Origin: an uncultured SAR86 cluster bacterium
Lineage (GTDB): Bacteria; Pseudomonadota; Gammaproteobacteria; Magnimaribacterales; D2472
Assembly (NCBI GenBank): GCA_902626385.1
Contig: CACOEZ010000008.1
Coordinates: 1-35,000 of the forward strand
Direction of reading: 5' to 3'
Length of the DNA: 35,000 nucleotides
Position 1 is the stretch's first letter, and each line of letters begins with the position of its first letter. The notes below the pieces were generated by a model, which saw only the letters and a list, made by a program, of their open reading frames with translations, had not been told where the DNA came from and ran no database searches. Positions 2,487-15,870 of this stretch are shown here, piece by piece. Position numbers and translations under genes: made by a program.

Positions 2487-4318
2487 TAGATTCACAAGAA
2501 CGATTTTCTGAGAAAAAAAATTTTTTTAATAGACTAATATTGATTTATGTTATTTTTGCAGCTTTATTCATCTTAATAATTTACAAGACCTATTCTTTAC
2601 AAGTATCAAGCTTTTCAGATTACGAAATTGCAGCATTAAAAAATAAAACAAGAGAAATTTTAATTCAGCCAAGTAGAGGAATTATTTATGATAGAGATGG
2701 GCAGATACTAGTAAATAACGTACCTAGTTACAATTTAATAATAAAACCTTCATTTATCAGCAATTTTGAGAATTTGTTGGATGAAATTAAATCTATTGTT
2801 GAGCTGTCAGAAGAAGAAATTGAATATGCGCGTATCAATTTTCAAAAAAAAGCTTCACTTAACAGGGAGCTTATCCTTAAGAAAGATCTATCTAAAGAAG
2901 AAATTGCAAAATTTGAAGTAAGGAGCTATCGCTTCAAAAATGTTTTTATTGAACAAAGATACTCAAGGCAAAATTTATATCCTGAGCTCTTCTCTCATGC
3001 AATTGGATATGTAGGAAATTTGAACAACGAAGGACTGGATAAAGTGCTGCAAGATCAATCTCTTTCTACAAAAGAGACTATTTTTTATTATTCAAATGGT
3101 TTTATAGAGGGAAAAACAGGAATTGAAAATATCTATGACGATCGGTTAAGAGGTAAATATGGAACAAAAATTTTTGAAGTTGATGCAACAGGAAAATTAT
3201 TAGATGAATTAAATGAAATTCCGGCAGTTAGTGGCAATGATATTAAAACCTCCCTTGATTTGGAAAGTCAGAAAGTTGCTTTCAAGGCTATGAACGGCAG
3301 AAGAGGAGCTATTGTCGCAGTAAAAATATCAACTGGTGAAATCGTTTCATACATCAGTTCACCCTCTTTCTCTGTAAATAAAATTGCAAATGGTTTATCT
3401 GAAAACGAGTTCAAAGAGCTGCTAGACGATGTTAATAAACCTTTTTTTGATAGAGCTGTCCAAGGAAGATATTCTCCAGCTTCAACAATAAAGCCGGCTA
3501 TTGGCTTATTTGGTATTGAAAATGAAATTATAGATTGGGACTACAAAATCAATGATCCAGGATTTTTCATTCTTCCTGAGGATAATCGAATTTATAGAGG
3601 TTGGAAGAAAGGAGGGCATGGCGACATCAATTTATCTAATGCAATAATAGAAAGTTCTAATACTTTCTTTTTTTCACTTGCTTACCAATCTGATATAAAT
3701 GATTTAACCAAACACTTATCAAAATTTGGTTTTGGTAGAAATGTCTGCAATGATTGTTTTTTGCCAGATATTGGCTTACTTCCAAGTCCAGCCTGGAAAA
3801 TGAATACTCATAATTTTGGATGGTTTAAAGGAGATACTGTAAATTTGGGAGTGGGACAAGGATATTTAAGTGCGACACCAATCCAATTAGCATATTACGC
3901 AGCTATTCTAGCAAATAAGGGCACAATAAATAAATTTTCATTTGTAAAGAAAGATTCCCTTGAAGAACCAGATAAATTAATTTCAGCAAATATAGATGTT
4001 TCTGATTGGGAGAAAATGCATGAGAGCATGATAGGCGTTATTGATAATCCAAAAGGAACTGCAGGTAGGTTAAGAAGCTTGAAAGATTATCCTATTGCTG
4101 CAAAGTCTGGAACTGTGGAGCTTGTAAGCACTGAGACAAAAGAAGACTACAAAATTATAAGAGAAAATGAGGGCAACAGAGATCATGCAATAATTATTGC
4201 TTTCGGTCCTATGCCAAATCCTGAATATGCCGTAAGTGTTGTTATTGAAAATGGAGAGAGCGGTGGATCGGTTGCTGGACCAGTAGCCATTGCAGTTATG
4301 AATAGCCTGATTAATTGA
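2483..4318 (+). CDS. mrdA: penicillin-binding protein 2 (rod-shape transpeptidase)
   Basis: A 611-residue class B penicillin-binding protein that cross-links peptidoglycan during lateral wall elongation as partner of RodA. A single N-terminal membrane anchor lies at about residues 17-38, followed by the dimerisation domain (IQPSRGIIYDRDGQIL at 55-70) and the transpeptidase domain. The three catalytic motifs are present and correctly spaced: SxxK at Ser334-Lys337 (SPASTIKP), SxN at Ser391-Asn393, and KSGT at 541-544. The active serine falls close to Ser330 of E. coli PBP2. It sits between rlmH and rodA as in most gammaproteobacteria, with an ATGA overlap upstream and a TGATG overlap downstream. 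The enzyme appears intact and should be a beta-lactam target. Confidence 0.96.
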   Translation: MIDSQERFSEKKNFFNRLILIYVIFAALFILIIYKTYSLQVSSFSDYEIAALKNKTREILIQPSRGIIYDRDGQILVNNVPSYNLIIKPSFISNFENLLDEIKSIVELSEEEIEYARINFQKKASLNRELILKKDLSKEEIAKFEVRSYRFKNVFIEQRYSRQNLYPELFSHAIGYVGNLNNEGLDKVLQDQSLSTKETIFYYSNGFIEGKTGIENIYDDRLRGKYGTKIFEVDATGKLLDELNEIPAVSGNDIKTSLDLESQKVAFKAMNGRRGAIVAVKISTGEIVSYISSPSFSVNKIANGLSENEFKELLDDVNKPFFDRAVQGRYSPASTIKPAIGLFGIENEIIDWDYKINDPGFFILPEDNRIYRGWKKGGHGDINLSNAIIESSNTFFFSLAYQSDINDLTKHLSKFGFGRNVCNDCFLPDIGLLPSPAWKMNTHNFGWFKGDTVNLGVGQGYLSATPIQLAYYAAILANKGTINKFSFVKKDSLEEPDKLISANIDVSDWEKMHESMIGVIDNPKGTAGRLRSLKDYPIAAKSGTVELVSTETKEDYKIIRENEGNRDHAIIIAFGPMPNPEYAVSVVIENGESGGSVAGPVAIAVMNSLIN

Positions 4319-12130: not shown

Positions 12131-13471
12131 TTATTTTAAGAATTCATTTTCGAGATAATTTATTGTATGTTTATTTTCATTAAATATCTCATCATCTAGA
12201 ATATTCTGATGAAGCTTTTGATTTGTTGTAATGCCTTCAACAAAAAATTCGTCTAAAGCGCTTTTCATTCTTTTAATAGCTGATTTTCTTGTATTGGCTT
12301 GAGTTATAATTTTTGCAAGAAGCGAATCGTAAAACGGAGGTACCTCATAACCACTATATATATGTGAATCATACCGAATACCAAAACCACCAGCAGTATG
12401 CATTTTTGTTATCTCCCCTGGACATGGCTGAAAATTAATTGGATCTTCTGCATTTATTCTGCATTCTATTGCATGCCCATTAAAGTAAACTTCATCTTGA
12501 TCAAGATTAATACCAAGCCCAAGAGCAATTCTAAATTGTGCTTTCACAATATCAAAACCAGTTATCATTTCTGTTACAGGATGTTCAACTTGAATTCTTG
12601 TATTCATCTCAATGAAATAGAAATTATTTTTTTCATATAAAAATTCAAGAGTTCCAACCCCTTCGTAATTTATTTCCTTACAAAGATTAACCGATGAATT
12701 TAAAATTTTATGAAGACTTTCCTGATCTACATTTGAAGCTGGAGCTTCTTCAATGATTTTTTGATGCCTTCTCTGCATGCTGCAGTCTCTGGTACCGAGA
12801 TGGATAGCATTTCCTTTTCCATCTCCAATAACTTGTATTTCAATATGCCTTGGATTTTCAATAAATTTTTCAATGTATATTTGATCATTTCCAAATGAAT
12901 TAGCAGCTTCTTGCATTGTAATTTCAATCATATTTAAGAGACTCTCTTCTGAGTGAACTATTCTCATGCCTCTCCCACCACCTCCAGCTGTAGCTTTTAA
13001 AATTACTGGATAACCAATACTTTGAACAATGTCTTTTACTTCATCTTCATCATTTGGTAGCTCTCCTGAATAACCGGGTACCGTAGGAATATCAAATGTT
13101 GAAACAAAATTTTTGGCCGTAATTTTATCCCCCATCTTTCGTATTGTTTCTGACTCAGGTCCAATAAATTTAAATCCACTCTCATTACACTGATGAGCAA
13201 AGTCTGGATTCTCAGCCAAGAAACCATAGCCTGGATATATTGCATCCACTTCTGTCAGTTCAGCTGCAGAAAGTATTGAAGGTATATTTAAATAGCTATT
13301 AATAGGTGCAGCAGGTCCTATACATACTGTTTCATCTGAAAATTTTAAATGTTTAAGGTCTTTATCAATCTCGGAGTAAACGCTTACCGTTTTAATACCT
13401 AATTCTCTGCATGCTCTAAGAGCACGAAGCGCAATTTCTCCTCTATTGGCAATTAAAATTTTATGAGACAT
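12131..13471 (-). CDS. accC: acetyl-CoA carboxylase, biotin carboxylase subunit
   Basis: A 446-residue biotin carboxylase (E. coli 449). It carboxylates the biotin of AccB using ATP and bicarbonate, the first step of fatty-acid synthesis. The N-terminal KILIANRGEIALRALRACRELG is diagnostic; the ATP-grasp glycine loop is GGGGRGM at about 163-169. Further marks are the catalytic-region EMNTRIQVEHPVTEMITG and AIECRINAEDP. The gene directly follows accB, with stop and start codons abutting, and precedes leuS by 3 nt. In pseudomonads accC is usually followed by prmA; here leuS has taken that place. The protein looks complete and active. Confidence 0.97.
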   Translation of the reverse strand: MSHKILIANRGEIALRALRACRELGIKTVSVYSEIDKDLKHLKFSDETVCIGPAAPINSYLNIPSILSAAELTEVDAIYPGYGFLAENPDFAHQCNESGFKFIGPESETIRKMGDKITAKNFVSTFDIPTVPGYSGELPNDEDEVKDIVQSIGYPVILKATAGGGGRGMRIVHSEESLLNMIEITMQEAANSFGNDQIYIEKFIENPRHIEIQVIGDGKGNAIHLGTRDCSMQRRHQKIIEEAPASNVDQESLHKILNSSVNLCKEINYEGVGTLEFLYEKNNFYFIEMNTRIQVEHPVTEMITGFDIVKAQFRIALGLGINLDQDEVYFNGHAIECRINAEDPINFQPCPGEITKMHTAGGFGIRYDSHIYSGYEVPPFYDSLLAKIITQANTRKSAIKRMKSALDEFFVEGITTNQKLHQNILDDEIFNENKHTINYLENEFLK

Positions 13472-13909
13472 TTATTCAATAACGATAATAGTTTGACCAA
13501 ACTCAACAGGCTGACCGTCCTCAACTTCAATAGCAGAGACCTTTCCATCAAAATCAGATTTAATTTCATTCATCATTTTCATCGCTTCAATAATGCAAAG
13601 AACATCTCCCTTATTAACGTTATCACCAACTTTTACAAATGGTTCTTTTTCAGGACTTGGCTTTCTATAAAAAGTTCCCACAATTGGAGCAGTGACAAGA
13701 TTTCCTTTTATATCAGTTGATTCTTGATTTAGAGTTATTGCACTATCTACTTTTTCAATATTATTTTGGTTGACTGAACCACTTACAATACTAGTGTCCC
13801 TGCTCGATTTTGAAATTCTTACTGACTCTTCACCTTGACTCACTTCAATCTCATTTAAATTTGATTCTTCTAACATCTCTATTAAAGTTTTAATTTTTCT
13901 TATGTCCAT
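13472..13909 (-). CDS. accB: acetyl-CoA carboxylase biotin carboxyl carrier protein
   Basis: A 145-residue BCCP. The N-terminal part ([23 protein letters not shown]) is the usual interaction segment, followed by a Ser/Asn-rich linker around residues 35-65 and the C-terminal biotinyl domain beginning [14 protein letters not shown]. The biotin-accepting lysine is Lys111 in EAMKMMNEI, and the protruding-thumb region ([19 protein letters not shown]) is present. It lies between aroQ (8 nt upstream) and accC (no gap), the standard gammaproteobacterial aroQ-accB-accC arrangement. Regulation would be from the operon promoter upstream of the dsbD-like gene; no internal promoter is evident. Confidence 0.96.
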
Positions 13910-13917
13910 ATTTTTAC

Positions 13918-14349
13918 CTATTTATTTTCAATTGCATCCTCAAGAGCTATAACATATCCGTTAGTTCCATTTCCACTGATCACTTTTTTTGAAATGTCCG
14001 AAAAGAAAGATTTCTTTCGAAAATCTTCTCTTGAGTCTATATCTGAGATATGTACTTCATAGAATGGAATTTTGACTGCCAATAATGCATCTCTTAATGC
14101 AATACTAGTATGTGTATAGCCTGCTGGATTAAAAATTATAATATCAACATTTTCATTAAAAGCTTCATGAATACGATTTATAAGCTCGTGTTCCGCATTG
14201 CTTTGAAAGAAATTTATTTTAACATCTGATTTATCTGCAATATTTCTTAAATTATTCTCAATATCATTAAGGGATTCTGATCCATAGACATCTTCTTCTC
14301 TAATACCAAGAAGATTGAGATTAGGTCCATTTAGTACTAATACCTTCAT
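13918..14349 (-). CDS. aroQ: 3-dehydroquinate dehydratase, type II
   Basis: A 143-residue type II dehydroquinase, third enzyme of the shikimate pathway, converting 3-dehydroquinate to 3-dehydroshikimate; the family forms dodecamers. The N-terminus [21 protein letters not shown] contains the reactive Tyr22. [17 protein letters not shown] (about 73-89) binds substrate, and [14 protein letters not shown] carries the catalytic His100. Length matches the family (~145-150). It precedes accB by 8 nt and follows the dsbD N-terminal domain gene by 40 nt. The context is the conserved dsbD-aroQ-accB-accC block known from pseudomonads. Confidence 0.96.
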
Positions 14350-14389: not shown

Positions 14390-14800
14390 TTAGAGTAGAT
14401 ACCTTTGTATCGGGTAACAAACACCCACCTCAGCACAACCTTGATATAAAATTTCATATTCAGTGCTATTACTTTTTGCAGTAACTGAAATTTTGAGTAT
14501 ATTTTTGAAAATATCAGTTTTTCCAAAAAACTCATCCTCAATTTCATTTTTTGATCCTATTAAAAGTTTATGCTCAAGAGGATTTTCATTTTGTTTTATT
14601 TTTATCGAATCAGCATACAAGTAATATTTTTCTTTAATATCCCATTTTATTATTATTTCATTACCATCATTCATAACATTAATCTTGAATGCTTCATCAG
14701 CTGGAAGTATTTTATTTTCTTGTAAAAATCCATTATCATCGCCAGCAAAACTTAGGGATGAAAAAAAAAATAGAGTATAAATATATATCAGTCTTTTCAT
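14390..14800 (-). CDS. DsbD N-terminal (alpha) domain protein, lacking membrane and gamma domains
   Basis: A 136-residue exported protein matching only the periplasmic N-terminal domain of the thiol:disulfide interchange protein DsbD. A signal peptide (IYIYTLFFFSSLSFAG) is followed by an immunoglobulin-like domain with KYYLYADSIKI and the redox pair in YQGCAEVGVCYP, Cys122 and Cys128, with the same six-residue spacing as the active cysteines of E. coli nDsbD. It then stops after YLL. The membrane DsbD-beta domain and thioredoxin-like gamma domain are missing, and only 40 nt lie before aroQ, so they are deleted rather than frameshifted. Its position upstream of aroQ-accB-accC is where full-length dsbD sits in pseudomonads. 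It could still relay electrons if a CcdA-like partner exists elsewhere, or be a decaying remnant. Confidence 0.8.
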   Translation of the reverse strand: MKRLIYIYTLFFFSSLSFAGDDNGFLQENKILPADEAFKINVMNDGNEIIIKWDIKEKYYLYADSIKIKQNENPLEHKLLIGSKNEIEDEFFGKTDIFKNILKISVTAKSNSTEYEILYQGCAEVGVCYPIQRYLL

Positions 14801-14862: not shown

Positions 14863-15870
14863 ATGTTTTCAAATTTATTAATCAATTTATATTTTTTTAT
14901 CCCTGCATGGATGGTTAAAATTTTTTTATTTTTTAATCGTGACATCAAGAGAAAATATATTCTTGATCCACAAGCTCAACTTTTAATTTCTCTTTTCCCA
15001 AAATATGATGTGAAAGAAATTAAAAAACAAGACTTAAAAGTTTTTAGAGAATCAATTGAGCAAACAAGAAGAAAAGTTAGTGTTTCAAAAAAAACTTTGA
15101 AAAAAATCATCAAGAAAGATCATTTTATCGGAGATGAAAAATCTCTAATGATAAGAGAATACGAACCATATAAAACTGATAATGAAAATGTAATTTTATA
15201 TTTTCATGGAGGTGGTTACGTTTTAAATTCAGTTGAAACACATGATGACACTGTTTCTTATTTTTCAGAAAAATTAAGAACAAAAATTTTTTCTCTGGAA
15301 TATAGGCTTGCTCCAGAAAATAAATTCCCAGATGCTTTAGAAGATTCTTTAAGTGCGATTAGATGGCTGGAATCTCAAAATATACCTCTACAAAATATTA
15401 GTCTTTGTGGTGATAGTGCAGGCGGTCATTTGGCTGCATCTGTTGCTCATTATTTCTCAGAAAAAGATATTAAAATTCATAGTCAATTTTTAATTTATCC
15501 AATGTGCGATCCTGGATGCAATAGTGATTCTCAAAAATTGTTCAGTGAAGGTTATTTCTTAACTAACGAAGCTATGAGGTGGTTTTGGGATTGCTTGATA
15601 TCTAGTGAAAGCGACAATGAAAATCATAAATATAATCTGCTTAAGGTTAATAAAAAAATAACCGTAAATCATACATTTATAATTACTGCAGGATTTGATC
15701 CTTTGCATGATGAAGCTGAAAACTATGCATCAATTCTCCATAATTTGGGTAATAGTGTGAAACAATTACACTATCCTTCTTTGTTTCATGGATTTGCATC
15801 AATTACGAAGCTTAAAAAAGCAAATGATGCTGTAAATGATATGCTTAGAGAGTACAAAAAAATATTATGA
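14863..15870 (+). CDS. alpha/beta hydrolase (HSL-family esterase/lipase)
   Basis: A 335-residue esterase of the hormone-sensitive-lipase family. The oxyanion motif HGGG is at 115-118 (LYFHGGGYVLNS), the nucleophile elbow GDSAGG places Ser185, and the acid and base of the triad are Asp279 (TAGFDPLHDEA) and His309 (SLFHGFA). YRLAPENKFPDALED is also typical. The N-terminus has a hydrophobic stretch at residues 5-24 that may anchor it to the inner membrane. The substrate is unknown; short-chain carboxylic esters are usual for the family. The stop overlaps the start of the ABC ATPase as ATGA, so the two are co-translated, but no functional link is established. Confidence 0.9.
   Translation: MFSNLLINLYFFIPAWMVKIFLFFNRDIKRKYILDPQAQLLISLFPKYDVKEIKKQDLKVFRESIEQTRRKVSVSKKTLKKIIKKDHFIGDEKSLMIREYEPYKTDNENVILYFHGGGYVLNSVETHDDTVSYFSEKLRTKIFSLEYRLAPENKFPDALEDSLSAIRWLESQNIPLQNISLCGDSAGGHLAASVAHYFSEKDIKIHSQFLIYPMCDPGCNSDSQKLFSEGYFLTNEAMRWFWDCLISSESDNENHKYNLLKVNKKITVNHTFIITAGFDPLHDEAENYASILHNLGNSVKQLHYPSLFHGFASITKLKKANDAVNDMLREYKKIL

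Follow-up and report, generated by a model that had tools for sequence, protein, structure and literature searches.

A free-standing DsbD alpha domain before aroQ-accB-accC in SAR86 bacteria that also have a full-length ScsB-type protein elsewhere in the genome

The gene directly upstream of aroQ in an uncultured SAR86 cluster bacterium raises the question of what the N-terminal (alpha) domain of DsbD, nDsbD, does as a protein of its own: whether it is a working reductase or a leftover of one and, if it works, which protein would supply its electrons. The window, that is the whole stretch of DNA analysed, has 35,000 nucleotides and contains the following features.

14390..14800, minus strand: free-standing nDsbD (DsbD alpha domain), 136 aa, ATG start; from Pfam, NCBIfam, PDB-sequence and fold searches
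14741..14800, minus strand: putative signal peptide, about residues 1-20; by eye, with a low-pLDDT N-terminus in the model
14522..14536, minus strand: cap loop D89-E90-F91-F92-G93 (E. coli counterpart D68-G72, including F70); by sequence comparison
14417..14437, minus strand: redox pair Cys122/Cys128 (C-x5-C), equivalent to E. coli Cys103/Cys109; by sequence comparison
13918..14349, minus strand: aroQ, 40 nt downstream of the nDsbD gene; marker of the ancestral dsbD locus
13472..13909, minus strand: accB, intact in the window, an N-terminal stub in some SAR86
12131..13471, minus strand: accC, intact in the window
14863..15870, plus strand: divergently oriented neighbour, esterase-like by eye and conserved at this place in family f1

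The sole Pfam domain of the window protein is DsbD_N (PF11412), at residues 29-132 (2.1e-22), with 79.8 bits against a curated cut-off of 25. In NCBIfam, residues 1-131 correspond to positions 2-131 of the 574 in the DsbD profile PRK00293 (100.3 bits); as the profile is covered at these positions only, the protein is an alpha domain and nothing more, and its 100.3 bits on the full-length model NF001419 fall under the whole-protein cut-off of 330. The beta and gamma domains are absent from the chain, and aroQ comes next. A match to NF035942 was rejected as chance (16 bits, cut-off 200). Searched with a profile of 16 SAR86 copies, the PDB gave nine different sequences, each carrying a DsbD or DsbD-alpha label (best 2.6e-27). 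The AlphaFold2 model, built from a 36-row alignment (pLDDT 83.5, pTM 0.72), has the predicted immunoglobulin-type fold of nDsbD, with a TM of 0.69 to both 3pfu and 6dnv. All 18 Foldseek matches at E <=0.001 are nDsbD chains, including those of 1vrs (complex with the gamma domain), 1jzd (complex with DsbC) and the 1z5y complex; ScsB (6c29) is next in the list, weakly (0.0032). The C-x3-C pair of ScsB-type alpha domains is not present in the window protein, whose pair is C-x5-C. The window protein is a classical nDsbD. The sequence-only reading had already described it as this domain alone, with Cys122 and Cys128 six apart and 40 nt to aroQ, and all of this was confirmed.

The arrangement is common in SAR86. 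An open frame of the nDsbD kind lies directly before aroQ in 36 further SAR86 loci, so the window frame is more than chance. These copies were counted from fetched loci and not from best-match tables; 40 SAR86 regions were fetched, 36 at the free domain and the other four at the full-length gene. Among 25 aroQ loci sampled from genus g8 and families f3 and f4, the free domain was found at 16/16 g8/f3 loci (15 intact, one broken in MAG G064) and at none of the nine f4 loci; five of the 30 genomes (G047, G112, G118, G077 and G098) gave no aroQ match and were left out of this judgement. At L099, the locus of G064 (59% complete), the nDsbD, aroQ and accC frames are all broken, which looks like sequence error and not decay. 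A TAA flagged in the G019 copy (L041) is not a break, and its 140-aa frame is intact.

A scan of named genomes, in which the best 80 of 354 relatives were kept, gave 38 free-standing proteins of 136-159 aa, each followed by aroQ after about 20-52 nt; the titles of 33 name SAR86 and those of the other five only Gammaproteobacteria. The remaining 42 of these 80 are full-length frames of 564-796 aa, nine of them with aroQ downstream in the fetched stretch, including Pseudoalteromonas and Rheinheimera. In 18 full-length dsbD loci of other gammaproteobacteria, hand-picked from the listed single-alpha frames, aroQ follows within the stretch in 13. The free domain therefore occupies the ancestral place of dsbD, and the in-place reduction at a dsbD-aroQ-accB-accC locus that had been proposed from the sequence is well supported. 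Separate arrival of the alpha domain, as a copy set beside aroQ and not by deletion within dsbD, would have had a source, since some gammaproteobacterial DsbD carry two alpha domains. It fits poorly with a free domain that stands in dsbD's own place and orientation, and with the long frames kept by relatives of other alpha-only lineages (606 aa in G319; 12/13 in family f98), and we consider it improbable. Tandem double-alpha DsbD was itself seen in 19 of 91 long frames with an alpha-domain match, some loci repeating one gene (L100, L102-L106, L109, L111, L112, L115, L116, L119, L121, L122, L124, L126, L128, L228 and L258).

A separate observation concerns the genes that follow. In 12 loci (L040, L041, L047, L063, L064, L065 and L067-L072), accB is cut to an N-terminal ORF of 51-58 aa between aroQ and leuS, and accC is gone; the same cut without accC was seen in 18 of the 38 named free-domain loci among the best 80 of 354 relatives. 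The search for AccC, made in 29 SAR86 genomes, stayed below the curated cut-off in 14. In one of these, G074, the gene is intact and falls just short (613.9 against 626.5 bits), which leaves 13 genomes without AccC, one of them (G034) a single contig and 95% complete. AccD above cut-off was absent in the same 13 and present in 4/4 comparison genomes. The 12 stub loci come from twelve of these 13 genomes, and the thirteenth is G007. Of the first 36 codons of the stub, compared across the 12 loci, 32 vary in the third position and 11 in the amino acid. From this pattern the stub resembles a conserved small protein, possibly kept after loss of acetyl-CoA carboxylase. A biotin-carboxylase-like protein of the 641-aa type remains in most and might act as a substitute.

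Whether the free gene is still under selection was judged from its copies. The Cys pair is invariant in all 37 copies of families f1 and f2, as are F38, Y62, D89, G93, Q120, G121 and Y129; in the cap loop, D89 and G93 are thus found in 37/37 and position 91 is F in 28 and Y in nine. When f3 and g8 are added, in an alignment of 16 rows, Y62, D89, G93, G121, C122 and C128 are still invariant. Among 666 pairs computed, with values taken from 14 of them and pairs with dS of about 1 or more being saturated, the six close pairs (dS 0.11-0.49, two of the six sharing near-identical members) gave a dN/dS of 0.23-0.41 for the free domain. The aroQ values in the same pairs, 0.03-0.20, are lower in all six. 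Pair L070/L068 has a dS of 0 and a dN of 0.009. The free domain is under purifying selection, weaker than that on aroQ. The gene could instead be a functionless dsbD remnant in decay, as it evolves fast outside the active site (SAR86 copies are 27-57% identical to the window copy), drifts at motif residues in some f3 copies (F for Y129, L for Q120), is lost in f4 and is broken in G064. We find this very hard to credit given the invariant residues in f1 and f2, a dN/dS well below 1 and the lack of any stop or lost cysteine among the 37 copies; G064, moreover, is a 59%-complete MAG with aroQ and accC broken too. The sequence-only reading's claim of a conserved gene holds.

The free domain is not the only DsbD-family protein of its genome, a possibility that was ruled out by a gene on contig C10. 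Its 659-aa product holds the second DsbD_N match and the sole DsbD_TM match of the window's genome, and consists of DsbD_N, DsbD_TM and Thioredoxin_7 in Pfam. The NCBIfam DsbD model covers only its residues 255-634 and leaves the alpha part uncovered; this part matches the N-terminal domain structure of ScsB from Proteus mirabilis (6c29, 3.7e-12). The alpha domain has the pair C-x3-C, and the gamma domain has the motif WCITC. In 36 ScsB-type rows from f1, f2 and f4 (f3 left out, several rows repeating one gene), C-x3-C is found in 36/36 and WCxTC in 34/36; both exceptions are rows of the truncated G064 frame. Exactly one DsbD_TM match was found in each of 31 SAR86 genomes, and in 30 of them it lies in a frame of 650-709 aa. 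In G086 (family f4), the only DsbD_TM match is in a 324-aa frame (contig C3, near 140416-140805) and no DsbD_N was found; the ScsB-type gene of this genome may be broken.

SAR86 has, then, an ScsB-type protein, likely the hub, and f1-f3 have in addition a classical alpha domain as a free protein. A full-length dsbD elsewhere in the genome had been named as the sign of a duplicate or remnant. Taken literally such a gene exists, on C10 and of ScsB type, and it does not show either, since its alpha domain belongs to another class than the free one, which purifying selection maintains. The search proposed for CcdA- or ScsB-type membrane proteins returned the second kind; a separate CcdA-sized DsbD_TM protein was found neither in the window's genome (72% complete) nor in any of the 31 SAR86 genomes. 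With one DsbD_TM match per genome, full-length-sized in 30/31, SAR86 does not look like a CcdA-split system, and this candidate was rejected (0/31 genomes). A split DsbD, in which a separate CcdA-like membrane protein and a periplasmic thioredoxin would serve the free domain, had been suggested for this organism and is improbable here; its support comes from other gammaproteobacteria with the same truncation, G213 and G249, which it fits and which are described below.

The classical clients of nDsbD exist in SAR86, DsbC_N being found in 28 and CcmH in 29 of 31 genomes; in the window's own genome (72% complete) DsbC_N was found and CcmH was not. TGA or TAA codons flagged inside CcmH matches lie at or beyond the gene end in the three that were read (G045, G074 and G080). 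Family f4 is informative in this respect. In a tree of aroQ, accB and accC from 47 loci, five of them f4 (LG+G4, midpoint root; G192 left out), with other gammaproteobacteria as outgroup, (f2,f3) has a support of 97, (f1,f4) 98 and f1 itself 55; as f4 groups with f1, the free domain was lost in f4. None of 16 f4 genomes has two DsbD_N matches. Six f4 genomes keep the DsbD_TM gene (6/6, G086 in its 324-aa frame), CcmH (6/6) and DsbC_N (4/6), so the free domain is not needed for those systems in general, and this pattern is the main evidence against its being essential for DsbC or cytochrome c maturation. For the same counts, a link to either system by co-loss in f4 was rejected, as they do not discriminate. 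At the nine f4 loci (L090-L098), a divergent gene of about 330 aa takes the position upstream of aroQ that the free alpha gene has in f1-f3 (9/9). Beyond it, 5/9 have a short gene with a weak match of about 100 residues to the full-length ScsB-type query; on recheck only L094 matched, in the thioredoxin part.

The f4 pattern also bears on a further explanation, that the free alpha domain is a reductase specialised on a single client and receives its electrons from some periplasmic thiol carrier and not from the ScsB-type protein. That f4 could lose the domain and keep the DsbD_TM gene, CcmH and, in 4/6, DsbC_N points to a client or route that would be specific to f1-f3. The analysis brought up no candidate for either donor or client, and the protein still has the cap loop and the active-site residues that belong to the standard nDsbD cycle; we regard this explanation as unlikely, though it deserves more weight than the alternatives above.

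In E. coli, DsbD domains that are produced as separate proteins can cooperate. Since the free domain keeps its cysteines and cap loop, we infer that it could be reduced in trans by the gamma domain of the ScsB-type protein. In the E. coli pathway, thioredoxin gives electrons to tmDsbD, from which they reach nDsbD by way of cDsbD; DsbC, CcmG and DsbG are the next acceptors, and the reduced cysteines of nDsbD are shielded by its cap loop (F70) (PMC7347389, PMC3961690). According to a 2015 paper, a role for ScsB in reducing CcmG had yet to be analysed (PMC4460558). In SAR86 a comparable route may have been assembled from two proteins. The classical dsbD before aroQ would have lost its membrane (beta) and gamma domains in the SAR86 ancestor, and the alpha domain would have been retained as a secreted, soluble disulfide reductase. 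Cytoplasmic thioredoxin would reduce the ScsB-type protein, whose gamma domain (WCITC) would pass electrons in trans to Cys122/Cys128 of the free alpha domain, guarded by the cap loop; this in turn may reduce classical nDsbD clients, for instance DsbC or a Ccm reductase. A single hub would thus deliver electrons through two heads, its own ScsB alpha domain and the DsbD alpha domain that is a free protein. The free domain, conserved in most of the SAR86 sampled, is probably a separate periplasmic electron carrier. For the whole reading, in-place loss of beta and gamma in the SAR86 ancestor together with a free alpha driven in trans by an ScsB-type hub, we see the chances as evenly balanced, and it is our best explanation. 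SAR86 is an abundant marine group with small genomes, and a gene kept in three of the four families sampled likely matters to it.

The reduction recurs outside SAR86. Alpha-only genes precede aroQ-accB-accC in G213, G301, G302 and G308 of family f98 and in G249 of family f134, and G192 (family f77) has one at the aroQ locus with a TlpA-like gene in between. G302 is counted here despite a mechanical frame of 292 aa, the extra part being upstream; G197 and G271 were dropped, as their short DsbD_N frames also hold part of DsbD_TM. In f98, leaving aside the genus of G213, 13 further genomes gave a match: 12 have long frames (at least 718 aa), and the thirteenth is G308, where an 867-aa frame gives an ScsB-like match; the other f134 genome sampled, G319, has a 606-aa frame. 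With these long frames in relatives, the reductions look independent of that in SAR86. The tree places G249 as sister of the remaining outgroup loci, and whether the tree by itself makes it independent of SAR86 hinges on where the root is set; an independent event is favoured by the 606-aa frame in G319.

Membrane partners were searched by DsbD_TM in G213, G249 and G192 (G301, G302 and G308 left out). The sole DsbD_TM protein is CcdA-sized in G213 (about 258 aa) and G249 (about 244 aa), and neither genome has another DsbD_N match; a CcdA split would suit these lineages. G192 also offers parts for such a split: a beta-gamma protein of about 400 aa (contig C75), a CcdA-like protein of 239 aa, and, between the alpha-only frame and aroQ at L279 (frames 2848-3471 and 3402-4055), a TlpA/ResA-like thioredoxin (WCPPC) that overlaps the alpha-only frame. 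G192 has a second DsbD_N match, possibly from an ScsB-like protein. Tentatively, and with more doubt than for SAR86 itself, the DsbD alpha domain may be a detachable adaptor, cut down in place in several gammaproteobacterial lineages and driven in trans by the hub that remains: an ScsB-type protein in SAR86, CcdA in G213 and G249, and a beta-gamma protein or CcdA in G192. If so, the output head of DsbD would have been uncoupled from its membrane engine and re-paired with a different engine more than once, a new hub could serve old DsbD clients, and it could be tested whether client choice is set by the alpha domain alone.

In a literature search, with most subscription journals outside its reach, no paper on a free-standing nDsbD was found. 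The nearest known relatives are the nDsbD domains of E. coli (1l6p, 3pfu) and N. meningitidis (6dnv), with which the window protein shares the predicted fold, C-x5-C, the cap loop and the motif YQGC..G.CYP; it differs in being free-standing, with no beta or gamma on the chain. ScsB of Proteus mirabilis (6c29) is like the full-length protein on C10, whereas the window protein is set apart from it by C-x5-C in place of C-x3-C. CcdA, which is DsbD beta alone, is like the free alpha a DsbD domain with its own gene, but it is the complementary part. Katzen et al. (2002) reportedly treated the domain-fusion origin of DsbD and how its domains were joined; the change in SAR86 runs the opposite way, from the fusion to a free alpha domain.
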